Source of the DNA: a virus
Virus record (IMG/VR): IMGVR_UViG_3300042691_037543
Coordinates: 20,737-84,736 of that record
DNA: 64,000 bases
Direction: 5' to 3' (one strand)
A program made the translations under genes and the position numbers. Below the pieces are notes generated by a model. It was not told where the DNA came from and made no database searches. It saw only the letters and a list, made by a program, of their open reading frames with translations. Position 1 is the first letter of the stretch. Each line of letters begins with the position of its first letter. This document shows, piece by piece, positions 7,986-45,361 of the stretch.

Positions 7986-9597
7986 CCTGAGCATCGAAGG
8001 GTTCTGCGGCATCGGCTCGCGCGCCAACGTGGCGTTCCCACAAACGGGCCTCGTGCTCGTGACGGGCCGCAACGGGTACGGCAAGAGTACGTTGATCGAA
8101 TCCGTCTCCCACGCCGTGTGGGGCGAGGGTGTGTTTCGCACCGGGTCGCTGTGGGCGGACAAGGGCACCATCGAGCTGCACACACACGACGGCTCGATGG
8201 TGCACAGACAACGCGCGGGCTCGCGTACGTCGGGGCAGTTGTACCGGCACGGCAGTACGTCGCTGTTCGACACCGCTACGAAGATGAACGAGGCGGCAGC
8301 GACGGCGTTCGGGTCACACGACGCGTGGCGCACGACGCACATCATCGAGCCCAGCGACGCGGCGATGTTCACGCGCGCAAGCGACACGGTGCGAAAGCAC
8401 GTCTTGGAGGGGCTTCTCGGGCTGAGCGTCTACGACGACGCCCTGGTGAAGTCCCGCACGTTCCGCAAGGCAGCAGACCGGGTACGCGAAGACACGGCGA
8501 ACAAGATCGCCGAGATTCGCGGTCGCCTGGAGACGCTCAACAACGTGTACAGCGCGTCCAAGTCGGCCCGCTCGAAAGAGGAGCTCACCGCGATCATCGA
8601 CGACGCCACCGCGCGCATAGACGCCCTGCAACAGCGCATCACGGAGTGCGACGACAAGGTGGGCGATCTGCGGTCGTCGGCCCAAAACCTACGCAGCTCC
8701 GAAGCGGTGCTGGTTGCGAAGCTGCACAACATCCACCGCGTAGCCGTGCACGGCGACCGGGTGTGTCCCCTGTGCGGCAGCACCGTCGGTGACGACGTGG
8801 CCAAGGGGATCAATGATGCCGCGACTGCCGAAGAACACGAAGTGAAAGCCCAACTTGCGGAGCTGCGAGAGAAAGCCCACCTGTGCGAAGCCGAGTTGAG
8901 CACGCAGTTGCTCGTGCAGGGCGACACGCGCCGGGATCAGGTGGCCCAGCAAGGCCGGCAAGACGCGGCGCGCCGCGAGCTCGACATCGTTCAGAAGGCC
9001 GAGGGCATTCGCGAGCGCATGGAGGCCGAGCAGGCACAGCTCGACGTGCTGAACGACAAGCTCGCGAACTCCATGACCGACGTAGACCTGTACGCGACCG
9101 CCGAGAAGATTCTCGGGGTGCGTGGTGTGCGCGCGCACATCCTCGACAACGCGGTCAACGCGCTCGGGCACTTCGCGGCGCAATGGATGTCGCAGCTCTC
9201 CGACAACGAGATGAGCGTCTCCGTGCAGTCCTACACGGAGAACACCCGCGGCGACGCCCGCAACGCTATCTCCATCTCGCTGCTGCGCGGTGACCGCACG
9301 ACGCCGTACGCCGCCTGCTCTCGCGGTGAGCAGCGCCGCATCGACATCGCCGTGACGCTCGCGCTGGCCGACATTCAGTCGTCCGCGACGGCGCACCCGA
9401 CGGGCACGCTGTTCGTAGACGAGATCATGGACGGGCTCGACTACGCCGGGGCTCTCGCAACGCTGAGCTGTCTCGCGAAGATGGCAGCCAAGCGTTGCGT
9501 AGTGGTAATTACTCACAAGGCGAGCGTGCAGCTCGCCGCGAAGGCTGCGGCGCACTTCATGTTCGTGGCGCCGGGGGTTATCGAAAGGGCGAAGTAA
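7972..9597 (+). CDS. sbcC: SbcC/gp46-like recombination ATPase
   Basis: A 541-aa SMC-like ATPase. It has Walker A GRNGYGKST at residues 32-40, then a coiled-coil arm with a zinc hook CPLC at about residue 265, then a second coiled-coil arm. The ABC signature-like CSRGEQRR is at about 449 and Walker B LFVDEIMDGLD at about 480. It is about half the length of bacterial SbcC and close to T4 gp46 (about 560 aa), so the coiled-coil arms are short. It forms the end-resection complex with the SbcD-like protein. The stop TAA shares a base with the next ATG at 9597. Confidence 0.9.
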   Translation: MKISDLSIEGFCGIGSRANVAFPQTGLVLVTGRNGYGKSTLIESVSHAVWGEGVFRTGSLWADKGTIELHTHDGSMVHRQRAGSRTSGQLYRHGSTSLFDTATKMNEAAATAFGSHDAWRTTHIIEPSDAAMFTRASDTVRKHVLEGLLGLSVYDDALVKSRTFRKAADRVREDTANKIAEIRGRLETLNNVYSASKSARSKEELTAIIDDATARIDALQQRITECDDKVGDLRSSAQNLRSSEAVLVAKLHNIHRVAVHGDRVCPLCGSTVGDDVAKGINDAATAEEHEVKAQLAELREKAHLCEAELSTQLLVQGDTRRDQVAQQGRQDAARRELDIVQKAEGIRERMEAEQAQLDVLNDKLANSMTDVDLYATAEKILGVRGVRAHILDNAVNALGHFAAQWMSQLSDNEMSVSVQSYTENTRGDARNAISISLLRGDRTTPYAACSRGEQRRIDIAVTLALADIQSSATAHPTGTLFVDEIMDGLDYAGALATLSCLAKMAAKRCVVVITHKASVQLAAKAAAHFMFVAPGVIERAK

Positions 9598-10664: not shown

Positions 10665-10973
10665 GTGGCCTGCCGATGTGAGCACTGCGATGAGTTTCAC
10701 CCGCGGGCCCACGACTTGTGTGAGTTCTGCGAGGAGCACTGCCCGCACATGATCGAACCGCAGGGAAACTTCGTCGAAGGCTTCCTCGGCATTCAGCGGT
10801 GGCACGCGCACCGGGCCAAGTCGTACCTCGACGATATGGCTGTAGACGGCTCCGTCCATGCCGGCACGCTGATGCGACACGGCATGGACGGAGTCTTGCG
10901 CGACCTACGCTTGCTGAAAGAGTCGCGTGAGCTCGACCGAGGCTTTCTTAGAAGTCTCGATCGAACGCAGTAG
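10665..10973 (+). CDS. Small zinc-ribbon-like protein
   Basis: A 102-aa protein, GTG start at 10665, two bases after the previous stop. The N-terminus is rich in Cys/His: CxCxxC, then CxxCxxHCPH within the first 30 residues, resembling a zinc-binding knuckle pair. The remainder is helical and charged. No specific family was recognised. It is the last gene of the early plus-strand block and converges on the endolysin, leaving only five bases between the two stops. Confidence 0.7.
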   Translation: MACRCEHCDEFHPRAHDLCEFCEEHCPHMIEPQGNFVEGFLGIQRWHAHRAKSYLDDMAVDGSVHAGTLMRHGMDGVLRDLRLLKESRELDRGFLRSLDRTQ

Positions 10974-10978
10974 GCACG

Positions 10979-11959
10979 CTACTTGTTGAGCGCCAGGATG
11001 GCTTGCGTCGTGGCGGGGCCGACGATGCCGTCAACCTTGAGCCCCGCATCGCGCTGAAATGCCTGTATGGCGCCGGCACCGCCGTACCCGGCTCGTTGCA
11101 GCTTGCAGGCGAGCACGAAGGCGATCCGCCCTTCTTCGTCGGAGCGCGTGGGCAGCGCCCATCCGAAGCTGAGCGGGTGGCGGAGTGCGCCCGCGATGGT
11201 GTCCGTACGGCTGACATGGTGCAGCTGATAGTACGGCGCCCAATCCACGTCGGTTAGGTCCGCGGGCCCGTCGGGGGCGTCCGGGCGAATGCCCAGGTTC
11301 CGCACGCCGTCACGCCACGAGGCCAGGGCGCGCGCCTCGCGCCGCGGGAGGGCGCCCCGGTGCGCCATGCCGGCGTCACCCGCGGCGCCCGCGGCGTAGA
11401 CCTGCGCGGCCGACAGACGCACGGGCGACCGCGCCCCCAACCACGCCGCCCACGGGTAGGTGGTGTGGAAGCTGGGGTGATCGTACGCGGTGTGCCACTG
11501 AAGAAGCTGCGGGTAGGCTGCCTCGACAGCCTTCAACGACTCTTCGATGGCTTCCTTGAGACGCGACCGCTGTGAAGCATCCGGCGGCGTCTTCCAGTCC
11601 GCCTCGGCGTTCCACATGGTCGCGTCGGCGCCCGCGTCGGCTGCGGCGCCGGCACAACGAAGAAACTGCCCGATCGCCCACTTCGTGTTGCGCCCGCCTT
11701 TGGTGACGGACCGCGCCGTGCCATCGACGCCGCAGCCGATGACGAGTCGGTAGCCCTCGCCGCGAAGCAGCGACACGAGACGCTTCGGGGTCCAAGTGTG
11801 GAGCTGTACGGCTTCTGGTCGCGCCTCGGCAAGCAGCTTGGCGACTTCGACGGTGTAGGCGTTGTGAATCCCGCCGGAAGGACTCCAGAGGGTCGGCACA
11901 AGACCACGGAACGGCGCGCCGCCCACGGCGGCGTCGGGCACAGCAGGGTTGCTCGTCAT
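10979..11959 (-). CDS. Endolysin: glycoside-hydrolase-like domain plus peptidoglycan-binding domain
   Basis: A 326-aa protein, ATG start at 11959. The C-terminal ~45 residues form a PG_binding_1 domain (AIQAFQRDAGLKVDGIVGP). The N-terminal ~230 residues look like an alpha/beta barrel hydrolase, with an acidic strand end MWNAEADWK that could hold the catalytic Glu/Asp. There is no signal peptide, so export needs a holin or lysis by accumulation. It degrades peptidoglycan at the end of infection. It is the only minus-strand gene inside the plus-strand arm, with 5 bp to its convergent neighbour and 25 bp to its divergent one, so it must have its own promoter near 11960-11985. Confidence 0.82.
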   Translation of the reverse strand: MTSNPAVPDAAVGGAPFRGLVPTLWSPSGGIHNAYTVEVAKLLAEARPEAVQLHTWTPKRLVSLLRGEGYRLVIGCGVDGTARSVTKGGRNTKWAIGQFLRCAGAAADAGADATMWNAEADWKTPPDASQRSRLKEAIEESLKAVEAAYPQLLQWHTAYDHPSFHTTYPWAAWLGARSPVRLSAAQVYAAGAAGDAGMAHRGALPRREARALASWRDGVRNLGIRPDAPDGPADLTDVDWAPYYQLHHVSRTDTIAGALRHPLSFGWALPTRSDEEGRIAFVLACKLQRAGYGGAGAIQAFQRDAGLKVDGIVGPATTQAILALNK

Positions 11960-11984: not shown

Positions 11985-12467
11985 ATGAGCGAGCTGGTCG
12001 TAGAACCGATCCCTGTCGTGAGCCTAGAGAGCTTGTCTCCCACATCCGTCAGCGTGGGCCCCAGCAGCTTCCTGTGCGCGGTGTGCAGGGTGACACAGCG
12101 TGAAATGTACAACAACGGGCTGTTCATTATCGCACCATGTATCGGGGACAACGGTGTGGTTCGGCGAGCGGTGAACCACCCGGTACTTTGGCTTTGTCAC
12201 CAATGCGGGTCGTCGGCCCCGAGGATGGTCAGGGACGATTGCTGGTTTATAACAACCACGCCACAAGCCCACCACCCTTTCATCGTGCGTGTGTCGATGC
12301 ACCTCGCCAGTCAAAAGACCAAAGACGGGCGGGATATTGCCCTGCTGGCACGGCGTGCGATGGACTTCGAGGGTCCGTTCACATGGCGGCTCGTTGGCCC
12401 GCACGAAGCGGCCATCGCCTACTACGAGGCTGTCGCGACGATGGTGGTGATGACACATGGAGATTGA
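11985..12467 (+). CDS. Small Cys-rich array protein 1 (CxxC pairs)
   Basis: A 160-aa protein; ATG 11985 is preceded by CAGGAG. A disordered Val/Ser-rich N-terminus leads to CAVC and CHQC pairs about 38 residues apart, a zinc-ribbon-like arrangement. A beta-type core (FIVRVSMHLAS) and a C-terminal helix (EAAIAYYEAVATMVV) follow. The function is unknown. It shares its layout (Cys-rich head, Trp-containing beta core, terminal helix) with the proteins at 12457, 12890, 15730, 16226, 16709, 17155 and 17465. Its 3' end overlaps the next gene by 11 bases. Confidence 0.75.
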   Translation: MSELVVEPIPVVSLESLSPTSVSVGPSSFLCAVCRVTQREMYNNGLFIIAPCIGDNGVVRRAVNHPVLWLCHQCGSSAPRMVRDDCWFITTTPQAHHPFIVRVSMHLASQKTKDGRDIALLARRAMDFEGPFTWRLVGPHEAAIAYYEAVATMVVMTHGD

Positions 12468-12897
12468 ATACTTTAATGAAAGAGTGGTGATGAGCGGATT
12501 CGGCGACGCAGTCCGCTTTTACGAAGGTGAGTCGCGGAAAAGCTGCATGATCTGCCGCAAGAACACTGAGAATACATCGACAACAAGAATGCTGTTCCTG
12601 CGCCGCATCGGCTACGAAGTCGTGGACTTCGGCCCCCTGTGTGGAGCCTGCCTCTCAGGCACGAGAAGCGTGAACCTCCACTGCGGCGCGCGATCCGCAC
12701 AAGTGCACTTCGTGCGCGGATTCCTCGCGGTGTGGCGAACCACACAGGAATCTTGGCGGCACGTCGTCGGTAGTTGGGACGCAATCGGCGGCGGGTGGCG
12801 CTGCGCCATCGTCGCGGGCTCTGTCGAAGAAGCTGACCAGTTCGCGTCCGCATCATTGACTGCCTTGATGATGTCGCTGGAAGACACGCGTGAATAA
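12457..12897 (+). CDS. Small Cys-rich array protein 2
   Basis: A 146-aa protein; the start is ATG 12457 overlapping the previous gene (an in-frame ATG at 12490 is an alternative). The head contains CMIC and CGAC pairs about 29 residues apart. The core has paired Trp-rich strands (VHFVRGFLAVWRTT, then GGGWRCAIV). The C-terminus is a helix (EEADQFASASLTALMMSLE). No known family was recognised, but the layout matches its neighbours. The last codons overlap the next gene. Confidence 0.72.
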   Translation: MEIEYFNERVVMSGFGDAVRFYEGESRKSCMICRKNTENTSTTRMLFLRRIGYEVVDFGPLCGACLSGTRSVNLHCGARSAQVHFVRGFLAVWRTTQESWRHVVGSWDAIGGGWRCAIVAGSVEEADQFASASLTALMMSLEDTRE

Positions 12898-13447
12898 CGA
12901 CCCCGAGCACCTTCTGAACGTCGCGAACGTGCTGTTTTGCAACCGCCCGTGTGTACACTGCGGTACCGCCTGCTTTCATATAAGCGTCCTGGGTGAGACG
13001 CCGCCGGCTCTCGTATGCGTGCGTATGCCCGACATGCCGTGGGTTGTGGACGAAGCCGATCCCCAAAAAGGGCCGTGCTCGTGGTGCCGAAGCTACGCGC
13101 GTGTACGGCGCAACGGCCGCAGCGTGCGGGCAGGCGCTTGGGGTATGCTTCCGACATGGAAGCTGTGTAAATTCCGCTTCGGTTGGGTGATGGGGCCACA
13201 CCTCTACTTCGCGGTCGGTAGACCCGTGCCGGGTGACCCCGGCCGTGTCGCCGAAATTGCGCTGCGCGTGTTGACCATCCCCGGTCGAGTAAGAGGCGAC
13301 TTCCACAACTTTCACTTGATAAATTTCAGCGGGACACGCGCAGTGGTGCAACCGATAAACAAGCGGTGGACGCACCCTAGTGTAGCTGCGTTCATAAAAG
13401 ACACAGCGACGGCGCTCGCTGTTTCTCTAACACTGTCCACGGAGTAA
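12890..13447 (+). CDS. Small Cys-rich array protein 3
   Basis: A 185-aa protein starting at GTG/ATG around 12890. The head has CVHCGTAC and CSWC, which look metal-binding. The core contains strands such as HLYFAVGRPV and FHNFHLINF, and the terminal helix begins HPSVAAFIKDTATALAV. The function is unknown. It is a member of the local set with shared architecture and is followed four bases later by the dATP/dGTP diphosphohydrolase-domain gene. Confidence 0.72.
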   Translation: MNNDPEHLLNVANVLFCNRPCVHCGTACFHISVLGETPPALVCVRMPDMPWVVDEADPQKGPCSWCRSYARVRRNGRSVRAGAWGMLPTWKLCKFRFGWVMGPHLYFAVGRPVPGDPGRVAEIALRVLTIPGRVRGDFHNFHLINFSGTRAVVQPINKRWTHPSVAAFIKDTATALAVSLTLSTE

Positions 13448-13451
13448 AAAG

Positions 13452-14624
13452 ATGGAGCTCTCACTCGAAAAGCACTTCACGAAGCTCTACCGCACTATGC
13501 TCGACAAGCCCGCGGAGGTATTCGCGCTCCGCGGCGCGGTTGGGGTGGCCATCGTGCACTGGCTGGATTCCGGCTGGAACGTGTACCTGCCCGGTGAACC
13601 GTTGGTGCGGCGTCACTGGGCCGATTACCCCGAAGCTCGTCAGGCTATCGAGGCGTTGGTGGTCCGTGTTGGTGGGATGCTTTTCGCTGGGCGCCCGCTG
13701 ACGCACCCGAATGTGTCGATGAGCTGTGGTGAGCGTGGTGGGCCGGGAAAAGGGCGCTTGGTGTACCGCGTTCGCGTCGGCGCGGACCAGGAGGTATTCG
13801 ACGACGCGAACGCGGCAGCGCTGCGATGGATGATCGCCGTTGCCGAGTACGCGGAGACGCCTGCGGAGACGCCGGCCGAGCCCTACGTCCGCCCGCTCAA
13901 CAAGCAAGACTTCGACGTGCACGACGAGATGAACCCCGACGGCACCGTCAGGTGCACGGTGTACGCGCTTCGGAACGGCCAGGGGCTCCGTATCGCGTAC
14001 TGGCCCTCCGAGGGGATGTACGAAGCGTACGATGTTAACGAGACGTTGCAGTACACGGGCTACTTCTGCGCGGTAGAGTTCGATGCCGCAATCGACAAGC
14101 TGCGGCAGGTTGCTGTGCAGTCATTGGCTGCGTATCATCTGCCTTTCAAGCTAGACGGCGCGACCCGCCGCGCCGTCGAGAGCCCTGACGGCAAGCGCTG
14201 GACGTTCGCGTCTGCGGAGAACGCGCAGCGCTATTGGTTGGCGAGCATCGCGGGGCACATACCGCCGGCCACCACCCCGGAGCCCGCCGAGCCTAGTGCG
14301 GTGCCGGTCGAGTCCACCGACGACGAAGGAGGGAAGAAGTACGACGGCGGCAAGCCCGACTACGCACTCCTTCCGCCGCTCGCGATCGATGCGATGGTGC
14401 GCGTGCTCACCTACGGGGCGAAGAAGTACGGCCCCGACAACTGGCGCAAGGTGCCCGACCTGCGGCGCCGGTACCTCTCCGCGCTGCTGCGGCATGTCTT
14501 CGCGCACATGCGGGGCGAGACGCGCGACCCCGAGACGGGGGAGAACCACCTCGCGCACGCGCTGTGCTGCGTGGCCTTCATTCTTGAGCTCGACGAGGAG
14601 AGCGCGACCTCTGGGAAGGCGTGA
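13452..14624 (+). CDS. dATP/dGTP diphosphohydrolase-domain protein (DUF5664-like) with novel N-terminal region
   Basis: A 390-aa protein. The C-terminal ~90 residues match the phage dATP/dGTP diphosphohydrolase (MazZ-like, all-alpha NTP pyrophosphatase) domain: KYDGGKPDYALLPP, VLTYGAKKYGPDNWRKV, LLRHVFAHMRGE and HLAHALCCVAFI. These helices hold the Glu/Asp/His metal sites. The first ~290 residues are not recognised. They seem to contain repeated alpha/beta units, each ending in a helix after a Glu/Asp (DDANAAALRWMIAVAEY; DAAIDKLRQVAVQSLAAY; ENAQRYWLASIAGH), joined by Pro/Glu/Thr linkers. The likely role is trimming dNTP pools during infection. The start is ATG 13452. Confidence 0.78.
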   Translation: MELSLEKHFTKLYRTMLDKPAEVFALRGAVGVAIVHWLDSGWNVYLPGEPLVRRHWADYPEARQAIEALVVRVGGMLFAGRPLTHPNVSMSCGERGGPGKGRLVYRVRVGADQEVFDDANAAALRWMIAVAEYAETPAETPAEPYVRPLNKQDFDVHDEMNPDGTVRCTVYALRNGQGLRIAYWPSEGMYEAYDVNETLQYTGYFCAVEFDAAIDKLRQVAVQSLAAYHLPFKLDGATRRAVESPDGKRWTFASAENAQRYWLASIAGHIPPATTPEPAEPSAVPVESTDDEGGKKYDGGKPDYALLPPLAIDAMVRVLTYGAKKYGPDNWRKVPDLRRRYLSALLRHVFAHMRGETRDPETGENHLAHALCCVAFILELDEESATSGKA

Positions 14625-14833
14625 TGCGTGGCGTTGCCGAAGTGCTCAATGTGGTCGCGTATGTGACCATTCCTATGTTCGGCGTAGCGCTCTCGTTCTA
14701 CGCACTCATCGCGGTAGGCCCGATGCCAACGCAGAAGGCTATCTGCGCCGTGGTGCTCCATACGGGCGCGTGGCTCAACATCCTGGTTGCGTACCTGCAT
14801 GAGTATGCGAGCAGGCACTACGGCGAGGGCTGA
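14624..14833 (+). CDS. Small membrane protein with two transmembrane segments
   Basis: A 69-aa protein; ATG 14624 shares a base with the previous TGA (a GTG at 14621 is also in frame), with GGGAAGGC upstream. Two hydrophobic stretches are visible, about residues 6-30 (VVAYVTIPMFGVALSFYALI) and 40-60. The tail is short and charged. The size and topology fit small phage holins or other inner-membrane effectors, but nothing specific supports holin function and the endolysin is about 2.7 kb away on the other strand. Confidence 0.65.
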   Translation: MRGVAEVLNVVAYVTIPMFGVALSFYALIAVGPMPTQKAICAVVLHTGAWLNILVAYLHEYASRHYGEG

Positions 14834-14835
14834 CC

Positions 14836-14858
14836 CCCCACCGCGCTGTGCGGTGGGG
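14836..14858 (+). terminator. Strong G+C hairpin after the membrane-protein gene
   Basis: A perfect 9-bp stem (CCCCACCGC/GCGGTGGGG) with a 5-nt loop begins three bases after the stop at 14833. No T-run follows, so it may be a processing or attenuating hairpin rather than a true intrinsic terminator. Confidence 0.5.
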
Positions 14859-14886
14859 TGACAACGGATCGAAAGGAACACAGACG

Positions 14887-15222
14887 ATGAATACTCAACA
14901 ATACGAAGAAGAAGTCCGTCGAACTACGCCCAGCACTACCAGCGACGCGCAGGGGTGGTCGCTCGTCGGGCTCGGGCTCGCGGGAGAAGCCGGCGAGGTG
15001 GTCGAGCTCATCAAGAAGCACGTTCACCACGGGCGCGGGCTCGACCGCGAGAATCTGCTGAAAGAGCTCGGGGACGTGCTCTGGTACCTCACGCTCGGGG
15101 CACATCTCGGCGGCTTCACGCTCGAAGAAGTGATGGACGCGAACATCGCGAAGTTGCGTGCGCGCTTCCCCCACGGCTGGAGCGCCGAGGCGGCGAACGC
15201 GAAGGCCGACGAGAAGCGCTGA
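14887..15222 (+). CDS. mazG: MazG-like nucleotide pyrophosphohydrolase
   Basis: A 111-aa protein; ATG 14887 is preceded by GAAAGGA. The sequence shows the MazG signature: GLGLAGEAGEVVELIKKHVHHG, then LLKELGDVLWYLTLGA. These are the two EExxE/ExxD-type helices that bind magnesium. It is single-domain, like many phage MazG proteins, versus two domains in E. coli. It hydrolyses NTP or dNTP to NMP and pyrophosphate, and may also lower (p)ppGpp or clear non-canonical nucleotides. It lies close to the other nucleotide pyrophosphatase domain at 13452-14624, suggesting pool control as a function of this region. Confidence 0.88.
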   Translation: MNTQQYEEEVRRTTPSTTSDAQGWSLVGLGLAGEAGEVVELIKKHVHHGRGLDRENLLKELGDVLWYLTLGAHLGGFTLEEVMDANIAKLRARFPHGWSAEAANAKADEKR

Positions 15223-15242
15223 CACACCCACGCGAGCGCGTA

Positions 15243-15263
15243 CGCGCGGTGCGACTCCGCGCG
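15243..15263 (+). other. Intergenic hairpin upstream of the coiled-coil protein
   Basis: A 7-bp stem (CGCGCGG/CCGCGCG) with a 7-nt loop lies in the 63-base gap between the MazG-like gene and 15286. It sits just ahead of the ribosome site (GGAGGGAG), so it could modulate translation or be a processing site. Confidence 0.4.
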
Positions 15264-15285
15264 GTGGGGCCAGGAGGGAGAGGCG

Positions 15286-15699
15286 ATGAATGACACCGAC
15301 TTGCGCGCCGAGTTGGCTCGCGTGACCAAAGAGCGTGACGAACTCTTGCGCTGGAAGCGATGGACCGTCGCACGCGAGATGGTGCTCGTGATGGGCAAGT
15401 CCATGAATCGCGAAGACCGCGAGCAGTCGGTCAGGTGGCACTTTGCGTTGACTCGCTACGGGGTCAGCCTGCGCTGCGAGCGCCAAGGGGCACGTCTGGT
15501 GATGTCCGTAGTACAAGACAAGCTCGGCATCCCCGCTGCCCGTCTGTCCGGCGTCGAATTGTCCCGAGAGCCCCCTCTCAGTAGCGCGATGACCCGGCGG
15601 TTGTGCAGACTCATCGGTGTGGACCCGAAACCGCTGCTTCGGGAGAGGGCGGACGCACTGCGCGCGATGATGAAGCTCGCGGGTAGTGTGCGGCCGTGA
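15286..15699 (+). CDS. Hypothetical protein with N-terminal coiled coil
   Basis: A 137-aa protein; ATG 15286 sits behind a strong GGAGGGAGAGG ribosome site. The first ~25 residues form a charged coiled coil (LRAELARVTKERDELLRWK). The rest is basic and helical with a Pro-rich turn. Not recognised. It lies between the MazG-like gene and the second group of small Cys-rich array genes. Confidence 0.7.
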   Translation: MNDTDLRAELARVTKERDELLRWKRWTVAREMVLVMGKSMNREDREQSVRWHFALTRYGVSLRCERQGARLVMSVVQDKLGIPAARLSGVELSREPPLSSAMTRRLCRLIGVDPKPLLRERADALRAMMKLAGSVRP

Positions 15700-15729
15700 A
15701 TAGATCACTTAAAAAGAAACGAGGCTGCG

Positions 15730-16272
15730 GTGCCTGTTAAAAAGAAAAAGAGCGACGTGCAGCCGTGCCAGTCGTATCGCAACCAGTATCGGTTGCGGCG
15801 CTGGTGGAACCACGACGTACCGATGATCGACTCGGATCGGTGCGAAGCCGCTTGGCCGTGGGGCCTGCCGCGATCGGCCTACACCACGACGAACACCGCG
15901 TGCGCGCGACCGGCGAATACAGCTCTCACCGGCCCCACCGCGGTGCTCGAATTCACCGTGCGCAAAACATTCAGAGTCATTGCGCGCATCGAGTACATGG
16001 GGGTCTTCAATTCTTATAAGCAAGCGCTCGGAGTGCGGCACTACGGGAAGAAGCCGAACTCGATGCTGATGGGCATGTGGGTTCTCACGGACCTCAAGGT
16101 GTACACGCGCGAGCCGGAAGGGCACCTTGCCTTCGTGCAGCAGGTTGACCTCTACCCGTACGGTACCGTGGGGCGGCGAGGGGAAATGGAAACCCACGCG
16201 CGGAACATCGCTGAGGAGTTTGCCGATGAGTACGCGAAAGCCGTTGTCGATGACATCACCAGGACCGATTAA
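15730..16272 (+). CDS. Small array protein 4 (basic, Trp-rich head)
   Basis: A 180-aa protein, GTG start at 15730 with GAGGCTGC upstream. It has a Lys-rich N-terminus, then Trp- and Cys-containing segments (CQSYRNQYRLRRWW; RCEAAWPWG), strands (TAVLEFTVRKTFRVIARIEYMG) and a terminal helix (RNIAEEFADEYAKAVVDDI). The overall plan matches the other small proteins of this region although the Cys are fewer. The function is unknown. The 3' end overlaps the next gene by 47 bases. Confidence 0.68.
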   Translation: MPVKKKKSDVQPCQSYRNQYRLRRWWNHDVPMIDSDRCEAAWPWGLPRSAYTTTNTACARPANTALTGPTAVLEFTVRKTFRVIARIEYMGVFNSYKQALGVRHYGKKPNSMLMGMWVLTDLKVYTREPEGHLAFVQQVDLYPYGTVGRRGEMETHARNIAEEFADEYAKAVVDDITRTD

Positions 16273-16708
16273 ATTTCTCGACTTCGCCGTGGACTGCCAG
16301 TCGGGCAGGCAGCACGCAGAAAGCCCCGATGGCCCACTCATGTCAGGGGCGCCGATCTGCGGCGAAGACGGGAAGCACACTTGCTACCTACCCTGTCTGC
16401 GGCGCACCGAGCTCTACTACCCCGCCTGCCGACGGCAGGGTGGGAAGTGCGGTGGGCCTGAGTATCACGTCACCATTCGTATAAAAGTGGGCGCGCTATA
16501 CGCGGTGTATCGCGTGACCAACACGATGCGCCGCCGCTGCTGGCACGTCTATGTGACCGTGCACGTCGGGGGAAAGAGCAACAGTTGGGGGATCGTCGAA
16601 GACGCCCCCGTGCGCACGGCGCAGCAAATAAAAGACCTCGGGTTTCACGAAATTGTCGTGAGGATGGTCAGCGAACCCGTGGTCGCAGCTATGACGAAGG
16701 AAAGCTAA
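16226..16708 (+). CDS. Small Cys-rich array protein 5
   Basis: A 160-aa protein. I chose ATG 16226 because GAGGAG lies 8 bases upstream; the frame is open further 5' but inside the previous gene. The head contains seven Cys (for example CYLPC and CRRQGGKC), and the core consists of repeated strands (YHVTIRIKVGALYAVYRV; CWHVYVTVHVGGKS). The C-terminus is a helix after a Thr-Ala-Gln turn. No family was recognised. The Cys density suggests metal binding. Confidence 0.7.
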   Translation: MSTRKPLSMTSPGPIKFLDFAVDCQSGRQHAESPDGPLMSGAPICGEDGKHTCYLPCLRRTELYYPACRRQGGKCGGPEYHVTIRIKVGALYAVYRVTNTMRRRCWHVYVTVHVGGKSNSWGIVEDAPVRTAQQIKDLGFHEIVVRMVSEPVVAAMTKES

Positions 16709-17158
16709 ATGGACACGTGCGTAGACGAAGCGCTGAATCGCGGCGATCAGTGCACCCGCGAGCCGCGGATGCTGTTCCACAACCCGGTGGGGTTGTGCTC
16801 TACCGAACCCCTTGGGAACGAGCCGTGCCGTGCGGTTTCGTACATCGTCAGGATGTCGTACAAAGGCATTACGATCGTAGCCAAGCTCACGCTCAACGCG
16901 GCGGACAGGAACAACATGCTCGTACCGCGATGGCGCTGTCAGCAACCACACATGGGGTCCACGAAAGAGTTTAGCGACGCATGGTCGCGTCTGCATAGGA
17001 ACGGCTACGACAAGAAAATGCAGTTGTACCCGCGGTGGCCTACGCGCGCGGCGTCGAAAGAGTTTCTTGAGCAGCGTCTCAGGGATAATTTGAAAGAGCA
17101 CGTCGATCGTATCTTCGCGGCAGACACCGCGCTGCGAATGACGGAGCACACGCCGTGA
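16709..17158 (+). CDS. Small Cys-rich array protein 6
   Basis: A 149-aa protein; ATG 16709 directly follows the preceding TAA, with GAAGGAAAG upstream. Four to five Cys occur in the first 45 residues. The core strands include YIVRMSYKGITIVAKL, with a Trp-Cys pair (PRWRCQQ). The terminal helices are ASKEFLEQRLRDNLKEHVDRIF. The function is unknown. The stop overlaps the next GTG start (GTGA). Confidence 0.7.
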   Translation: MDTCVDEALNRGDQCTREPRMLFHNPVGLCSTEPLGNEPCRAVSYIVRMSYKGITIVAKLTLNAADRNNMLVPRWRCQQPHMGSTKEFSDAWSRLHRNGYDKKMQLYPRWPTRAASKEFLEQRLRDNLKEHVDRIFAADTALRMTEHTP

Positions 17159-17544
17159 CACCCACACCCGGTAATTCGGTCTGCGCGCGCATCGGTGCGT
17201 TCGGGTGGAGACGCAACGTGTGCCCCCCGCATTCACGGGGGCAATGCCGCCGCGCGTGTATAGAGGTGAGCACGCGAATGGGTGGCTTCCAAGCTACAGC
17301 ATACTTCACGCGTGACGCGACTCGCGGCGTGTGGGTGTTCGCACGCGACCATTATGGGGACGCCCGCGTGTGGGGTGTATGGGTGCGCGATGAGCTTGCG
17401 GTCAAGTACCGCGATGCCACGACATTCACCGTGGACACCGCCCGCACATTCGTGGAGCTAGACAATGCAAAAGAATACCTGCGAGAGCGCATCGACGCCG
17501 TGTGGGCCGGTATCACCGCGGCTGCTATGGCGTGCACCGACTGA
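17155..17544 (+). CDS. Small Cys-rich array protein 7
   Basis: A 129-aa protein starting at GTG 17155 in a GTGA overlap. Four Cys occur before residue 36 (CARIG, CPPHSRGQCRRAC). Strands (FQATAYFTRD; GVWVFARDHYG; RVWGVWVRDE) are followed by a terminal helix (NAKEYLRERIDAVWAGITAA). It is the clearest example of the shared plan: Cys head, Trp-rich sheet, terminal helix. The function is unknown. Confidence 0.7.
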   Translation: MTPTPGNSVCARIGAFGWRRNVCPPHSRGQCRRACIEVSTRMGGFQATAYFTRDATRGVWVFARDHYGDARVWGVWVRDELAVKYRDATTFTVDTARTFVELDNAKEYLRERIDAVWAGITAAAMACTD

Positions 17545-17920
17545 CAGCGCAAAGCCGCCAGAAGTCTGCAAGACCTGCGGGAGCGACCCCTGGTATCCGA
17601 ATCTACCCACCGATCGGTGCGTATACCCGATGGTGTATCACATGACGATCCCCGTCCCCGGCTCTCATGTCGATGTGACTCTGCTCGATATGACTCTGCG
17701 CTTCGCTCGTGTGGGCGGTCGGTGGAGATGCGACCTCTGGGTTTCTTGGGACGCAGCGTTTCGCACTACGCTGCACCGCGACACCATGCGGCAGATTGAA
17801 AAAGCCCGAGTGATCCCCGCGGAAACCACGACCGATAGCTGGTTGGAGGGGCTCGACTGGGCGCTCACCCACGCCGAGTGGGTAGAGGCTTGCTTCATAA
17901 GCAGCCTTTTGGCTAAATAA
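17465..17920 (+). CDS. Small Cys-rich array protein 8 (start uncertain)
   Basis: Up to 151 aa. The first in-frame ATG is at 17465, which would overlap the previous gene by 80 bases. A shorter product using a rare start near 17540 would begin close to the CKTC pair and match the other family members better. The head is CKTCGSDPW with a third Cys. Strands (MVYHMTIPVPG; GGRWRCDLWVSWD) and a Trp-containing helix (WLEGLDWALTHAEWVEACF) follow. The gene ends at the convergent terminator. Confidence 0.6.
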   Translation: MQKNTCESASTPCGPVSPRLLWRAPTDSAKPPEVCKTCGSDPWYPNLPTDRCVYPMVYHMTIPVPGSHVDVTLLDMTLRFARVGGRWRCDLWVSWDAAFRTTLHRDTMRQIEKARVIPAETTTDSWLEGLDWALTHAEWVEACFISSLLAK

Positions 17921-17922
17921 AA

Positions 17923-17953
17923 AGCCCACCCAAGCCGAATGCCTGGGTGGGCT
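17923..17953 (-). terminator. Rho-independent terminator of the late (leftward) operon
   Basis: A perfect 10-bp stem (AGCCCACCCA/TGGGTGGGCT) with an 11-nt loop. On the minus strand it is followed directly by TTTTTATTT, the standard intrinsic terminator form. It ends the minus-strand transcripts that run down to the gene at 17995. On the plus strand the same hairpin follows the last array gene and may act in both directions. Confidence 0.85.
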
Positions 17954-17994
17954 CGTTCGTGGGGGGTGAACGTGCTGCCGACTCTACAGCAGCG

Positions 17995-38969: not shown

Positions 38970-41006
38970 TCACCGAATGGAGAAGATGGGCTCGAAGCCG
39001 CCTTGCAGCCGGTTATCGGCCGCGGCTTCGAGGTCCGTGATGAAGCCTGCCGCGATGCGGTCGGGGTCGAAGCCCTCTGCGAACTTCTGCGTGATATCGA
39101 AGTGACTGTTGCGGAAGTCGTTGTGCGTGCGGTTGCCGCCACGGGCGCCCGGTGTGCGTGTGCGGTTGGTCGCGATGGCCGTCTCCGCGTTTACGGCTGC
39201 GGTGTTTTCGTCGGTCGCCGCAGCGAGACGGGCGAGGCCGCGGCTGATCGGGTCATCCGCCGTGGCATTCGCGTGCTGCGTCATGTTGCTTAGCTCGGCG
39301 CCGGCCTCCCGAAACATGCGTGCGATGAAGTTGATGACCGACGCAATCGCGTTCGCGAACTGCGTGACGATGGGGATGACGTGGTCGCGGACGCGCTCCC
39401 ACACCCACGCGAGTCCGATGGCGAGCGCGCGGAGCGCTGGCATAAGAAACGAGCCGATCGAGGTGAACAAGTTACCGATGGCCCCGGCAACGAGGAGCAC
39501 CGCTGGGCGCACACGGTCGATCAAGTCGCTGATGACCGGGCTCATGTACATGAAGAACTGGCGCAGCCCCTCGGCAGCCCCAGCGATCATGTTCGCAAAT
39601 CCAGGCAGCACCTCGATCATGATGTCGCCGACGACTTCGCTCACCTGCCCGAAGATGTTGGCGATGTAGTAGACCATCGGCATCAACGAGTTGAATGCGT
39701 TGACGAGCTGGGTTGTCACCAGCGCCACCTCGTCTTCGGCCTCCATGAAGTGCGCGAATCCGCCGGTAATCAGACCGGCCATTGGGCCGCCGAGCAGCGC
39801 CCCCGCGGCCATCGCGCCGCCACCTGCCTGCACACGCCCCGCGTTGTCGCCATGCTGGAGCTCGTTGAACAACCCGCCTGCGCGCCGCTGCACGTTCTCG
39901 ATGTACGGCAGCACCATCATCCGCACGCGGCTGTCCACCGCCGTGAACATGTGCTCCACACGCTCGGTGAACCGACCAGTCATCCCCACGAGCGCCTGCG
40001 AGATACTGGCACCAACTGTCTTGATGCGGTCTTCGTACCGAGACAGCAGCCCGTTCATGGCGCGAAGCGAGTCCTTCACACCTTCAAACAGCGGCGCCGT
40101 GATGGCACGCTGGATACCCGTGATGTGAGACTGGAACTCGCCCTGTAGCGCAGAGTAGGTATTGCCCGCGCGAGAGATCATGTCTGAGAGGCCACCGAAC
40201 GAGCCTTCCAGCAACCGGAGGCGCTCCGGCTGCTGCATTCGGTTGAACGTCTCGGCAGTGACCGCCGCCTGCCCCATCGACCGGCGGTAGTTGTTGATGA
40301 AGGGCAAGAGGCGTTGGAAGGTCGCCACGTCGGCGCCGGCACCCGCTTGTCCCTCGCGGATCATCAGCGACATGTCGCGGCCGATCTGCTCGGCGTCGAC
40401 CCCGAGGGACCGCCCGATGGCCGCGAAGTTGTTGCTGAACGAGAGCATCTGATCGAGGTTGTTGTTGAACCCCGCCGCGAGCCCGGAGATGCCTGCCTGG
40501 AAGACGGTGATGTACTCACTCGTCTCGCCGGGTAGCCGCGCTGCTGCCTCGTTGATGCGGTTGAGCGCCGTCTCGGCGATGTTCACACCGCCAGTGATAT
40601 CGCTGGCAAACCCGAGGGCTTGGAACGTACCCGCCATCGTGTTGACCATGTCTTCTTGACTCTGGTGCAACCCGACGACGGTGTTGGATAGGAAGGCGTA
40701 CGCGCGCTGCGCAGTCCCGACCGCGATGCCGAGCGCGTTGAAGTTGCCGACGAGCGACATGATGCCGCCCCCGCCACCTCCACCGCCAGCAGCACCGCCG
40801 CCAGAGACGATGTTGCTAGTGGCGGCCATGATGCCGCCGGCCGACTGCGAAGTGCTCTTCTCCGTAGAGGCAAAGAGCTTCTTCACACGCTCCATCACAC
40901 CGACGACGCGCTCGGCGGTCTTGGTGGCGCGGTCGATGGCGCCCAGCGTGACGCCTACGTTGTAGACAATACGCTGGGCGCCCGAAGTCGGCTCGTCGTC
41001 TGCCAT
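38970..41006 (-). CDS. Tape measure protein
   Basis: A 678-aa helical protein. It has the typical N-terminal helices, then Gly-rich breaks (GGGAAGGGGGGGG), then long amphipathic helices. Hydrophobic segments near residues 510-590 (PAVLLVAGAIGNLFTSIGSF; FANAIASVINFIARMF) could insert in the membrane. At about 0.15 nm per residue it would give a tail of roughly 100 nm, short to average for myoviruses (inference). Its ATG at 41006 overlaps the stop of the frameshifted chaperone frame as ATGA. Confidence 0.88.
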   Translation of the reverse strand: MADDEPTSGAQRIVYNVGVTLGAIDRATKTAERVVGVMERVKKLFASTEKSTSQSAGGIMAATSNIVSGGGAAGGGGGGGGIMSLVGNFNALGIAVGTAQRAYAFLSNTVVGLHQSQEDMVNTMAGTFQALGFASDITGGVNIAETALNRINEAAARLPGETSEYITVFQAGISGLAAGFNNNLDQMLSFSNNFAAIGRSLGVDAEQIGRDMSLMIREGQAGAGADVATFQRLLPFINNYRRSMGQAAVTAETFNRMQQPERLRLLEGSFGGLSDMISRAGNTYSALQGEFQSHITGIQRAITAPLFEGVKDSLRAMNGLLSRYEDRIKTVGASISQALVGMTGRFTERVEHMFTAVDSRVRMMVLPYIENVQRRAGGLFNELQHGDNAGRVQAGGGAMAAGALLGGPMAGLITGGFAHFMEAEDEVALVTTQLVNAFNSLMPMVYYIANIFGQVSEVVGDIMIEVLPGFANMIAGAAEGLRQFFMYMSPVISDLIDRVRPAVLLVAGAIGNLFTSIGSFLMPALRALAIGLAWVWERVRDHVIPIVTQFANAIASVINFIARMFREAGAELSNMTQHANATADDPISRGLARLAAATDENTAAVNAETAIATNRTRTPGARGGNRTHNDFRNSHFDITQKFAEGFDPDRIAAGFITDLEAAADNRLQGGFEPIFSIR

Positions 41007-41586
41007 CAGTCGTCCTTCTCGGCCTCGGCTGCTTCCTCTTTAAGAAGCTCAGAGATCGCGTTCGAGAACACTCTGATCGTAGGCATGGGCAGCGAGAGCA
41101 GCGTTCCCAAGTCGGCCCGCCCGTACCGCGCGCAGAACGCGAGCAGCTTCCAGAGCTTTCTCGCGTAGCTGCCGTCTCCGTACGCCTTGTAAAAAGCCAG
41201 GGCGTACCGCGGCGGGGTTACGCTACCGTAACCCGCCGACTCTTGAGAAAATCCTCGGACACCTCGCGATCCGCGTTGTTGATCTCGCTGTAGGCGGCCA
41301 TCACGAGGTTGCGCAGCTTCGGGCCCATCTCCGACCACGCCTGCTCTTGCGTGCCGTTGGCCGGCGAAACCGGCTTGTCGTTGATCGCGCGCAAGCTCGC
41401 CATCGCAAGCTGGAAAGCGAGCACCGTGGCGTCGCCGCGTGCGGCCTGCGCGCAGCGGAGCTCGTCCATCGCGGAGAGCTCGCCCACCGTGATGCTCGTG
41501 ACTTCCATGTTGAGCACCTTCCTACGCAGCTTGTCGGGCACGGCGTAGGTGAAGGTGGCGGTCGGGGTCGGCGTGATGTTGCTCAT
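41006..41586 (-). CDS. Tail assembly chaperone G-T fusion (programmed -1 frameshift product)
   Basis: The frame at 41006-41338 has no good start of its own. It is in the -1 frame relative to the chaperone at 41218-41586 and continues it after the stop region. A -1 shift at about 41245-41253 would fuse residues 1-113 to an 80-residue tail (SQESAGYGSVTPPRYALAFY...), giving 193 aa. This matches the widespread G/G-T arrangement directly upstream of the tape measure gene, where the pair chaperones tape-measure folding. The shift itself is inferred from gene order and frames. Confidence 0.72.
41218..41586 (-). CDS. Tail assembly chaperone G
   Basis: A 122-aa protein, ATG 41586. It begins with a Thr/Pro-rich strand (TPTATFTYAVPDKLRR) and becomes helical (LRCAQAARGDATVLAFQLAMASLRAIN; PKLRNLVMAAYSEIN). 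Position between the tail tube and tape measure genes and the overlapping -1 frame identify it as the short chaperone form. The stop is TAA at 41218-41220. Confidence 0.75.
   Translation of the reverse strand: MSNITPTPTATFTYAVPDKLRRKVLNMEVTSITVGELSAMDELRCAQAARGDATVLAFQLAMASLRAINDKPVSPANGTQEQAWSEMGPKLRNLVMAAYSEINNADREVSEDFLKSRRVTVA
41245..41253 (-). other. Candidate -1 frameshift site (GATTTTCTC)
   Basis: On the minus strand this is the only homopolymer run in the window where both chaperone frames are open (41221-41338). The zero frame reads GAT TTT CTC. The tRNA-Phe on TTT can re-pair with TTT one base back, after which the product continues as TCT CAA. It does not fit the classic X-XXY-YYZ heptamer. 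Confidence 0.4.
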
Positions 41587-41629
41587 GGAAAAACCTGTGC
41601 CTGTTGGTTGTTAGAACTCGGCTGTGCTC

Positions 41630-42067
41630 TCAGCCGATGATGGCGCGCGCGTCGCTCGCCTCGAAGTCGAGCGACGTGGTGCCGTAGTCCGAACGCGAGC
41701 CGAAGTTCACGGGCAGCTCACCGAACTCCACGTCGGGAACGATGATCCGCACGCGGCGGCCGTCGGGGAAGTTCAGCGTCATCTTGACGTTGACGGTCAC
41801 CCCCGGCAGGCGGCGCTTCGACTTGTCGTTCATCTGGATGAAGAAGTTGAAGGCGTTGGGGTCGTCGAGGTGCACCTCCATCGACCCGCTCACGCCCTTG
41901 AAGATCGAGTCCTTCCGCTCGGTCTTCTCGCCGATGTAGCCCTCGGAGAGAATCTCGCGGTTGTACTTGAACTCGCAGCTCCGCACGGCCGTCATGGACG
42001 ACACGATCTGGTTGTCTGCGACGATCTCGACGGACACTTCCTGACCCTTGATACGATTGCTAGCCAT
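41630..42067 (-). CDS. Tail tube protein
   Basis: A 145-aa protein; ATG 42067 (an adjacent GTG at 42070 is in frame). The strand order, with EILSEGYIGEKTERKDSIFKG near the middle and then GSMEVHLDDPNAFNFFIQM, fits tail tube proteins of contractile tails. These form stacked hexameric rings inside the sheath. It lies next to the sheath, separated by the hairpin at 42086-42125, and upstream of the chaperones: sheath - tube - chaperone - tape measure. Confidence 0.8.
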   Translation of the reverse strand: MASNRIKGQEVSVEIVADNQIVSSMTAVRSCEFKYNREILSEGYIGEKTERKDSIFKGVSGSMEVHLDDPNAFNFFIQMNDKSKRRLPGVTVNVKMTLNFPDGRRVRIIVPDVEFGELPVNFGSRSDYGTTSLDFEASDARAIIG

Positions 42068-42085
42068 CACTGCCCTCGCGTTTTT

Positions 42086-42125
42086 GAAACGAACAAGGCC
42101 CGGAGGCTTTCACCATCCGAGCCCT
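42086..42125 (-). terminator. Terminator-like hairpin between sheath and tube genes
   Basis: On the minus strand, AGGGCTCGGA pairs with TCCGGGCCTT (two G-T pairs), followed by GTTCGTTTC. A second compact hairpin (CCCCGC/GCGGGG) lies just upstream, at about 42129-42144. Together they could attenuate transcription so that sheath and upstream genes are expressed at a different level, or mark mRNA processing. Confidence 0.55.
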
Positions 42126-42189
42126 ATCCCCCGCAAGCGCGGGGTGCGGCACGCACGCTTGTGGTACCCGACAGGTACCTGTGCGTCAA

Positions 42190-44187
42190 CTAGGTGAGGG
42201 TCCGCGTGATGACCACGCCCTCACCGATGTTGGTCTGGAAGACCAGCACGTCGCCCGTGGCGAGCAACCGCACGTCACCGATGATGACGTGCACACCCGC
42301 CGCTTCGAGGTCTGCGGTGTTGCCGCTCTTGTCGTCCACGGAGTAGCCAGAGATGCGCTGCGCCGCGGGGTTGTTCTCCGAGAGCAGCCCGTCGAGGAAC
42401 GAGATCACCTCCGACAGCGCCGCATCCTTCCAGGCGTCGGTCATCGGCTGCTTGGCGAGCTGGTTCAGCCGGTTGGTGACCGAGTCTTGGATGAAGTCGG
42501 CCATGCGACGACGGCTGATGTTCTTCTGGCCGCTCGTGAGCGACGTGGTGACGCCGCTCTGGTAGATCGGCCCCGCGATGCGGTCGAAGCGCATGGCCAC
42601 GATGCCGGCAGCGCGCAGGGCGATGTACTCGGCCATCGACAGATCGGGCGTGCCGCGCGCGAAGGCGAGCACGCTCGACATGATCGTCGGAATGGGCTCG
42701 CTCGCCTGACCGGGGTTGCGCTCCGGCGGCAGGTTGGCCTCCACGCTGGCGAGCAGTACGTCGTTGGTGTCGTCGAGCACGCCATCGCTCGTCGTGCTGC
42801 CGTCGCTCGTGGCCACTGAGAACCCGACAGCTTCGGGCACCGAATGGCGGTAGCCAGGCCATGCGTAGTCCACACGATCCGTGCGGAAACCGCCGACACC
42901 CGGGGCAGAGCTCGCCAACACGTTGTTGAGCGTGAGCTGGTTGACGGCGGGGGCCGTAATCACACGGCGCGTCAGCCCACGCTCGCTCGCCGTGAGCGCA
43001 TGGGCGCGCAGCTTCGCGGCGATGGTGTTGTCCTTGCGGGCCGACACCACGATGTTCACGTCGCGCATCGGCTCTGCATCCGATAGCAGCGCGTCCACCG
43101 CGCGGTCGTACCGGGCGCGGATGGTCGCGTTCGTCGCGGCGTTCGGCGCGTGCACGTTGGCGTCGTAGGTGAGCGCCGTGCCGGGGCTGACCCGCATCCC
43201 GAGGCCCGAGAGTACGTCCCACGAGCTCGCGGTGCCCGCGTCGGGGACAACCGTGGGCGTGCACGCCGTGCCGGCGCTGACCGTCGCGTCGAGCGGGCGC
43301 GCAGGAACCGTGTACCCGCCCGTCTCCGTCGCGCTGTGGTCGCGCCCGTCCACCGCCGACGAGTCTGCGGTGCGCCCGACGTGGAGTCGGTAGGCGAGCG
43401 AGCTCTCGGTCACAAACGCGAAGTTCGTTCCGTCGAGCCGTTCGACCTCCAGCGCGGTTGCACTGGTGCGCGTGTTCACACGAACCGTCAGCGTATTGGC
43501 CGCGTTGTTCGTGCCGATGACGCCGATGACGAGGATGTCGCCTTTCTTGACACCCTTGTTGATGAAGTCGCCGGACGCGCTGGTGAACGTCTGCGTCGCC
43601 GCAGCACCGGCCGTCGCCACCACGCCGTCCGTGCCGGTCTTGTAGGCGGCGTCCGAGCCGAACGTCACCGCCTTCGCGATGCGAACGCGGTTCGCCGTCG
43701 CGAGAAACTCACGACCCGCAGCCACCGTCGCACCAGCCACGGGTACGACGGGCGACGGGTCCGACGCGCTCTTGTTGGTGGGCAGGTCGCGGAACACGCG
43801 CACGCCCTTGTTCGTCCCGCTGCCCGGCGTGACGTTGTCCACAGGAGCGACGATCAGCCGCGGGAAGCGCTTGTTGCGCAACGCCGCAAAGACGTTGCCC
43901 AGGTCCGCGCCGAACTTGCCGATCGTCTCGTCCCAGCCGCCGAACTTGTTGAGCAAGTCCTGCGCGCCGAACACCTCCGTGGGCACAACGCGCGTGGAGA
44001 CATCGCCGTTCGTGGCGACGGTCACTGCGCGGCTCGCGTCAGTGCACTCGCCGACGATGGCGACGCACCCGGTGCCGACACCCTGGATCGAAGCAGTCGG
44101 CGGCAGGTCGATGACGACCGCACCCTCGATCTGCGTGAGAACTTCCTTCGGCGGAAAGTAGCCGAAGCGTCGAACGAACCCTGCCAT
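42190..44187 (-). CDS. Contractile tail sheath protein
   Basis: A 665-aa protein, ATG 44187. N-terminal: VVIDLPPTASIQGVGTGCVAIVGE, the usual sheath start. C-terminal: RRMADFIQDSVTNRLNQLAKQPMTDAWKDAALSEVISFLDGLL, then GYSVDD, the conserved lower domain that links sheath subunits through beta-augmentation. The middle ~250 residues (ATAGAAATQTFTSAS...) form an inserted variable domain, making it longer than P2 FI (396 aa). It contracts to drive the tube through the envelope. Confidence 0.92.
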   Translation of the reverse strand: MAGFVRRFGYFPPKEVLTQIEGAVVIDLPPTASIQGVGTGCVAIVGECTDASRAVTVATNGDVSTRVVPTEVFGAQDLLNKFGGWDETIGKFGADLGNVFAALRNKRFPRLIVAPVDNVTPGSGTNKGVRVFRDLPTNKSASDPSPVVPVAGATVAAGREFLATANRVRIAKAVTFGSDAAYKTGTDGVVATAGAAATQTFTSASGDFINKGVKKGDILVIGVIGTNNAANTLTVRVNTRTSATALEVERLDGTNFAFVTESSLAYRLHVGRTADSSAVDGRDHSATETGGYTVPARPLDATVSAGTACTPTVVPDAGTASSWDVLSGLGMRVSPGTALTYDANVHAPNAATNATIRARYDRAVDALLSDAEPMRDVNIVVSARKDNTIAAKLRAHALTASERGLTRRVITAPAVNQLTLNNVLASSAPGVGGFRTDRVDYAWPGYRHSVPEAVGFSVATSDGSTTSDGVLDDTNDVLLASVEANLPPERNPGQASEPIPTIMSSVLAFARGTPDLSMAEYIALRAAGIVAMRFDRIAGPIYQSGVTTSLTSGQKNISRRRMADFIQDSVTNRLNQLAKQPMTDAWKDAALSEVISFLDGLLSENNPAAQRISGYSVDDKSGNTADLEAAGVHVIIGDVRLLATGDVLVFQTNIGEGVVITRTLT

Positions 44188-44196
44188 TGGGCGCTC

Positions 44197-44874
44197 CTAC
44201 GTTGAGGTTGTTGCTGCGTCGGCTCCCTCGGACACCGCGAGATCGAACCGGGGAGATGTCGCTTCCGTCAGGCTGAACAGCCTGAGCTGCGGGCAGGTTA
44301 CCTGCACCGAGAACGTCGCGCCGCGGAGACGCCGCTGCACGGATTCACCATCGTCGCGGTACGAGCACCGCAAGAGCTCGTAGGTCGCGTGCACACCGTG
44401 GTAGTGGGGCAGCGCGAGGCGGGCACCGTACATCCACGACACGGGGTTCAGCCCATCCTCGATCATCTTCACGCACGCCATACGCTCGACCGGGTCGTTG
44501 GCGTAGAGCTCCACGCTCAGCGGCAGGGAGAGCTCGGCCAACGTCGCGAGGTAGGTCGTTTTCTTTGTGATCGGGGACGTGAACTTCGTCTCCGCGATGA
44601 CCTTCGGCGTCATGCGTGATGCGTCGTACGTCAGGTCGCCCACCGCGTAGACGCACGCGCTCGGAAACTTGGCGATCTCCTCAGCCTCGGCCCACACGTC
44701 GAGCACCTTCGCGAGCTGAAACGTCTTCGAGCGGTTGAGGCCGCTAGAAGTTTTGAGAGATTCAAGGTACTCGGCCAGCCCGCGTGTCACCGCCGTCCGT
44801 ACGTCTGTCTCGACGTTAGGCGTGTACACCGCGCGCTGCGTCGCGCTGCTGACGAGGGTGGTTCGGTTAGACAC
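44197..44874 (-). CDS. Tail terminator/neck-region protein (unrecognised)
   Basis: A 225-aa protein, ATG 44874. It has an N-terminal helix (VRTAVTRGLAEYLESLK), a beta-rich middle (ACVYAVGDLTYDASRMTPKV; TYLATLAELSLPLSVELYAND) and a Cys-containing C-terminus (FSVQVTCPQLRLFSL). The family was not recognised, but its place between the neck protein and the sheath is the usual one for a tail terminator or completion protein. It overlaps the HK97-gp10-like gene by 8 bases. Confidence 0.6.
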   Translation of the reverse strand: MSNRTTLVSSATQRAVYTPNVETDVRTAVTRGLAEYLESLKTSSGLNRSKTFQLAKVLDVWAEAEEIAKFPSACVYAVGDLTYDASRMTPKVIAETKFTSPITKKTTYLATLAELSLPLSVELYANDPVERMACVKMIEDGLNPVSWMYGARLALPHYHGVHATYELLRCSYRDDGESVQRRLRGATFSVQVTCPQLRLFSLTEATSPRFDLAVSEGADAATTST

Positions 44875-45361
44875 GGGATCGACCCGGTGCGGATCGTAGC
44901 GCAGTTTCGATCAGCGTGTTCACCTGCCCCGCGACACGCTCCTGCGCGACGCGAACGAAGTCGCGCCCCTTCATCCCGCGGCGCTTGAGAGTCTTCGCGA
45001 TGGCGAACGCCACACGCTTTCGGTCACCGGGGCGCACCTGCGGGAACTTGATCGAAACCCACGTCTGAATCTTCCGCACGTTCGGCATCCGGCGCGGCCA
45101 CTTCGCGCCCATCGTCACCGCGCTCGCATACTTCACCGCATTGGTCACGGCGACGAAGCGCTTGCCGGTGACGACCCGCCACGACTTATTCAGCGAGCCC
45201 GTGGCAACGGCGCCAGCCTCCTTCGTCGCGCGCTGCACTTCACGAAGAATGATCTTGCCGCTCTGCTGGAGCGCCCGCTCCAACGAGCGGGCCACTTCGG
45301 CGACGACCTTCTTCGGAATCCTGTCGAGCTTGGCGATGGGGACGTTTTGTCGGAGCGGCAC
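44867..45361 (-). CDS. HK97 gp10-like neck/tail-completion protein
   Basis: A 164-aa basic protein. The motif ATGSLNKSWRVV followed by AVKYASAVTMGAKWP is characteristic of the HK97 gp10-like (minor tail/neck) family. In that family the Thr-Gly-x-Leu loop is followed by a Tyr-Ala strand and a Gly/Trp-Pro turn. It helps join head and tail. Length is typical (about 110-170 aa). Start ATG 45361. Confidence 0.72.
   Translation of the reverse strand: MPLRQNVPIAKLDRIPKKVVAEVARSLERALQQSGKIILREVQRATKEAGAVATGSLNKSWRVVTGKRFVAVTNAVKYASAVTMGAKWPRRMPNVRKIQTWVSIKFPQVRPGDRKRVAFAIAKTLKRRGMKGRDFVRVAQERVAGQVNTLIETALRSAPGRSRV

Follow-up and report, generated by a model that had tools for sequence, protein, structure and literature searches.

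Organization of the locus

The window analyzed in this work, that is, the whole stretch of DNA considered, is 64,000 nucleotides long and corresponds to bases 20,737-84,736 of an 84,736-base IMG/VR virus record. The virus is a tailed phage from a metagenome and is myovirus-like by gene content. Genes for polymerase A and for RecA-like, SbcC-like and ParB-like proteins lie on the + strand, and those for the baseplate wedge, tape measure, major head protein, portal and TerL lie on the - strand. TerL has at most about 56% identity to that of any other virus found, fragments of the same phage aside; the sole match in a viral scan with RecA was a fragment of this kind, and a viral scan with ParB found no relatives. 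We examined the block described below, the rest of the record (the first 20 kb of which is referred to as L034) and 14 related phage genomes, which were found via the polymerase and terminase.

The block contains eight small ORFs of 129-185 aa, all on the + strand: A, B and C (11985-13447) and H to L (15730-17920). The two groups are separated by a dA/dGTP diphosphohydrolase gene (D), a small ORF (E), a MazG gene (F) and an HTH-like ORF (G). The codon-position GC of the eight ORFs is that of coding sequence. The features are listed below in window coordinates, where set 1 denotes the putative paralogs discussed in a later section.

11985-12467, +: A, 160 aa; assigned to set 1 as a paralog; CAVC-36-CHQC; C-terminal block GPHEAAIAYYEAVATMVVMT; SD-like GGAG upstream
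12457-12897, +: B, 146 aa; assigned to set 1 as a paralog; CMIC-28-CGAC; C-terminal block GSVEEADQFASASLTALMMS; alternative start at ATG 12490
12890-13447, +: C, 185 aa, GTG start; assigned to set 1 as a paralog; CVHC-38-CSWC; C-terminal block WTHPSVAAFIKDTATALAVS
13452-14624, +: D, 390 aa; C-terminal dATP/dGTP diphosphohydrolase domain (PF18909, E 2e-31); non-member
14621-14833, +: E, 70 aa, hydrophobic small ORF; non-member
14887-15222, +: F, 111 aa, MazG-type nucleotide pyrophosphohydrolase (PF03819, E 8.4e-15); non-member
15286-15699, +: G, 137 aa; weak HTH_31 match (E 1.6e-4, under the Pfam cut-off); non-member
15730-16272, +: H, 180 aa, 3 Cys; no homologue found
16250-16708, +: I, about 152 aa from ATG 16250, overlapping H; 7 Cys; possible relative of J and K
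16709-17158, +: J, 149 aa, 5 Cys; possible relative of K and I
17155-17544, +: K, 129 aa, GTG start, 5 Cys
17465-17920, +: L, 151 aa, overlapping K; 7 Cys; SD-like GGAG upstream; no demonstrable relative
17922-17954: terminator-like hairpin separating the + strand block from the - strand late genes

Several other features of the window were recorded. Adjoining the block, a small ORF at 10665-10973 encodes a Cys-rich protein (102 aa, 6 Cys, CxxC-type) that is unrelated to set 1 by the tests used. The gene at 10979-11959 (-) is a lone - strand gene within the + strand early region and is an endolysin candidate; a peptidoglycan-binding-like repeat (VDGIVGPATTQAIL) was noted by eye at its C terminus, and orthologues occur in 0 of the 14 relatives. 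The N-terminal 290 aa of D (13452-14330) contain an internal repeat (z 4.8, p 0.001), with no strong match in the libraries used. On the - strand, TerL (60207-62963, 918 aa) carries an apparent intein, recognized by eye (LPPGQRVLTHRGPTRIEEIEVGDRVLTHKG, after about residue 500), and TerL of one relative, G009, is likewise interrupted. An HNH-type endonuclease-like ORF with CxxC pairs, also identified by eye (47060-47734, -), lies between virion genes and has orthologues in two relatives.

Composition of the block

A previous examination of the same DNA, made without database searches (the sequence-only reading), described the block as an array of about eight Cys-rich proteins. All eight ORFs are indeed present and are rich in Cys overall (3.8%, against 1.4% for the remaining genes of the record; p 8e-5), and their Cys residues are biased toward the N terminus, with 62% falling in the first third of the protein length and 81% within its first half; H has just 3 Cys. 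The GC content of the array genes is also low, at 60% compared with 66% for the other genes (p 6e-6). Note that the genes for this comparison were picked partly by codon-position GC, which may inflate the contrast, and that raw 500-bp windows agree with it. By segment, the two halves of the block have 59.5% and 60.6% GC and the enzyme segment between them has 65.0%, the value for the record being 65.4%. D, F and G lie at 64-66%, so that the dNTP enzymes splitting the block are not low.

The set-1 proteins

The pattern CxxC-x(19-38)-CxxC occurs in the N-terminal halves of A, B and C and of two further proteins, U1 and U2, which are encoded in tandem at 17441-17935 and 17932-18402 of L034. This tandem lies upstream of the window and of the polymerase gene, about 14 kb upstream of A-C, has a GC content of 55.8%, and is also found in contig L036 at 100% identity. 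The pattern, which is present in 5 of 5 set-1 proteins, is seen in 0.2-0.7% of composition shuffles.

Relatedness was tested by comparing the best shared ungapped block with those of protein sets that were either shuffled or natural. For set 1 this block, which is 20 residues long, scores 141, a value reached by none of 1000 shuffles (mean 68, maximum 122). With natural protein sets, 3 of 400 reach the set-1 block score when full-length proteins are searched; when the search covers the last 27 residues, within which all five set-1 blocks fall, 0 of 2000 reach the set-1 score (natural mean -55, maximum 55). A scan of all ORFs of the record and of the relatives with a set-1 profile retrieved exactly the five set-1 proteins, with scores of 27.6-37.2 that are inflated because the profile was built from those five; the next ORF scores 10.8. 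Since the five proteins had been grouped beforehand on the CxxC pattern, it is the C-terminal block that provides independent evidence. Whole-protein leave-one-out HMMs did not recover the set-1 members, and leave-one-out block scores are individually weak for U1 and for C, the most diverged of these paralogs.

Judging from these sequence comparisons, we conclude that A, B and C, together with U1 and U2, make up a genuine paralog family that is private to this phage and highly diverged. The family probably binds zinc, as predicted from the CxxC pairs. Rapid diversification after duplication, which had been suggested as one origin of the array, is supported for these five proteins by the CxxC pairs and the C-terminal block.

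Another small orphan family lies in a low-GC stretch of L034, where 8404-8910 (U0a) and 8897-9433 (U0b) encode adjacent paralogs (shuffle z 6.9).

ORFs H to L

The very low mutual identity reported for the eight proteins was confirmed, in that all-against-all phmmer comparisons and leave-one-out HMMs were negative. The same reading gave all eight a single plan, with a Trp-containing beta core and a C-terminal helix after the Cys-rich part. This holds for A-C as far as the CxxC...CxxC pattern and the C-terminal block are concerned, and does not extend to H-L, which, when tested for set-1 membership, were found to have neither the double CxxC nor the set-1 C-terminal block. Set-1 profiles miss H-L, set-2 profiles do not find set 1 convincingly, and H-L give no leave-one-out HMM signal and no full-length block signal; leave-one-out HMMs and cross-searches thus yielded no profile linking all eight.

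Within H-L, a shared C-terminal signal is marginal (p 0.017 for H-L, 0.01 for I, J and K). Uncorrected pairwise p-values are 0.001 for J-K and 0.011 for I-K, and I, J and K have an H-x-G...W spacing, noticed post hoc, that is present in 0.4-0.6% of background ORFs. Pairwise p-values of this order are also obtained for proteins of the set that are plainly unrelated. In particular, H matches the product of 44867-45361 with p 1.5e-4; this match was taken as spurious, the latter being a virion-region gene conserved in relatives. Because H obtains such a value with an apparently unrelated protein, a pairwise p of 1e-3 is unconvincing. A beta-Trp-helix domain shared between H-L and the N terminus of D was also considered and was not adopted, only C (p 0.008) and I (p 0.002), both uncorrected, giving a signal.

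Structures were predicted with AlphaFold from three-row alignments and have low pLDDT values, 47 for K and 41 for B. The low-confidence model of K consists of four beta strands followed by a helix at 95-126, and a Foldseek search with it found no relative (best E 0.67 in the PDB set and 0.06 in the viral set).

From their sequences, I, J and K may form a second family. Otherwise, H-L are five orphan genes, mostly Cys-rich, whose kinship with one another or with set 1 is unproven. In a single genome, composition and position can mimic "one architecture" though just part of the proteins are demonstrably related.

Searches in databases and related phages

No member had a significant match in Pfam, PHROGs, NCBIfam, PADLOC or PDB sequences. 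The PADLOC profiles, which cover known or candidate defence proteins, gave no match at E up to 1, and neither did a tblastn search of 50,697 GenBank phage records with the ten concatenated proteins. Scans of viral contigs with H and K as single proteins and with an A/B/U1 alignment, the reach of which is close relatives only, found no relatives. Protein A weakly matches generic zinc domains with two knuckles, e.g., Zn_ribbon_10 and zf-C2HC_3 (E 0.02-0.04); among curated zinc-ribbon/treble-clef profiles in Pfam the best E is 0.022, under the cut-off. The earlier statement that no known family could be recognized thus stands for the eight proteins and applies also to U1 and U2, neither the libraries nor the related phages containing a significant match. 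In the literature, we found no matching description of tandem zinc or paralogous small phage proteins.

Most of the flanking genes for replication, recombination and virion functions are conserved in the related phages, the genes on the two sides of the block having orthologues in up to 10-14 of the 14 genomes. In the same comparison, the gene set of which omitted I, J, L and U2, the 14 relatives yielded no orthologue of A, B, C, H or K, nor of the genes adjoining these over about 20 kb, except for D, which has a single orthologue, in G014. A direct comparison of all eight proteins and U1 and U2 with the relatives' ORFs gave chance-level matches only: weak phmmer matches (e.g., H-L283) look like chance or out-of-frame ORFs, and a match of I in G014 lies out of frame within the polymerase gene. 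In two relatives the corresponding region holds other genes, among them HNH, ParB-like, FolE-like and QueE-like ones. The view of the locus as an accessory region is borne out: it is lineage-specific, low in GC and placed at a junction with conserved flanks.

The orthologue of D in G014 (L131:14174-14758) has N-terminal zinc-ribbon-like Cys clusters, and Cys-rich small ORFs lie alongside it. In G026 (L239 and L240, about 39176-46473), the FolE-like and QueE-like genes of the corresponding region, which were recognized by eye, suggest deazaguanine DNA modification in that phage.

Interpretation

With moderate confidence, we interpret the locus as a lineage-specific accessory block that ends the early genes and contains an expanded zinc-binding family, probably host-directed. 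The block would form the 3' end of the early (+) genes, to be followed by the terminator and the opposed late genes; its early timing is presumed. A, B and C would be tandem members of the five-member phage-private family and U1 and U2 a second tandem, while H-L would be further orphan accessory genes of the same block. The N-terminal half of the set-1 proteins most likely folds around one zinc ion bound by a pair of CxxC knuckles, and the proteins most likely carry a conserved amphipathic helix at the C terminus. The zinc module would then serve as a scaffold, with the variable middle and the helix binding nucleic acid or host proteins at an early stage of infection, for host takeover or counter-defence. 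Under such binding, recurrent duplication and rapid divergence would be favoured. Small orphan genes in clusters have been the source of many phage proteins for counter-defence and takeover; by analogy with clusters like the host-takeover module of SPO1, a host-directed role is the most likely one. A more specific version, in which the two dispersed tandem arrays are a scaffold-based counter-defence repertoire of rapidly diverging zinc proteins, at least five and perhaps ten in number, with an invariant zinc scaffold and C-terminal helix that show variable surfaces to different host defence or regulatory proteins, is in our opinion very doubtful.

Other readings differ in how many of the proteins are related. 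It is quite possible that H-L are unrelated orphans gathered at an accessory junction, only A, B, C, U1 and U2 being related. The missing leave-one-out HMM and full-length block signals of H-L point in this direction, as do the equal pairwise scores reached by unrelated proteins and the different genes (HNH, ParB-like, FolE-like and QueE-like) carried at the relatives' junctions; however, chance co-location alone leaves the Cys-rich N-termini and the marginal I/J/K signal unexplained. Conversely, all eight proteins with U1 and U2 could belong to one ancient, extremely diverged family, along the lines of the sequence-only reading, in which a zinc module at the N terminus is combined with a Trp-containing beta core and a helix at the C terminus. 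All are small, clustered, low in GC and mostly Cys-rich near the N-terminus, and the marginal C-terminal block of H-L and the post hoc spacing in I, J and K are consistent with this idea. We nevertheless consider it decidedly unlikely, given that the double CxxC is absent from H-L, that profiles fail to link the sets, and that the models of K (beta4-alpha) and B, both of low confidence, are unlike each other.

A further reading concerns function rather than kinship: the small proteins could serve the phage's own DNA/nucleotide metabolism, as zinc-binding DNA-binding or adaptor proteins acting with RecA, SbcCD and the dNTP hydrolases. They sit between RecA/SbcCD/ParB-like genes and dNTP enzymes, and the dGTP diphosphohydrolase of G014 has zinc-ribbon-like Cys clusters and Cys-rich neighbours. 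This role seems unlikely, however, in view of the GC of the small genes, which is unlike that of the adjoining enzymes; moreover, in the 14 relatives the conserved replication genes are present and the small proteins are not, so that the machinery does not need them. The five-member family, with its common scaffold, can be told apart from neighbours whose kinship is unproven, and thus offers defined constructs for testing.

Comparison with known systems

Like treble-clef and zinc-ribbon small proteins, the set-1 proteins have two CxxC pairs; unlike them, they carry a C-terminal block that lies outside those domains, and their matches are far under the Pfam cut-offs. The block as a whole resembles phage accessory or counter-defence islands in being a lineage-specific group of low-GC small genes at a variable junction, but differs from counter-defence islands in having neither a PADLOC match nor a recognised known inhibitor family. 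It also resembles, in position and orphan status, the host-takeover module of SPO1 (PMC6873191), a cluster of 26 genes, small, mostly orphan and thought to be host-directed. Unlike that module, the block described here contains a Cys-rich paralog family.
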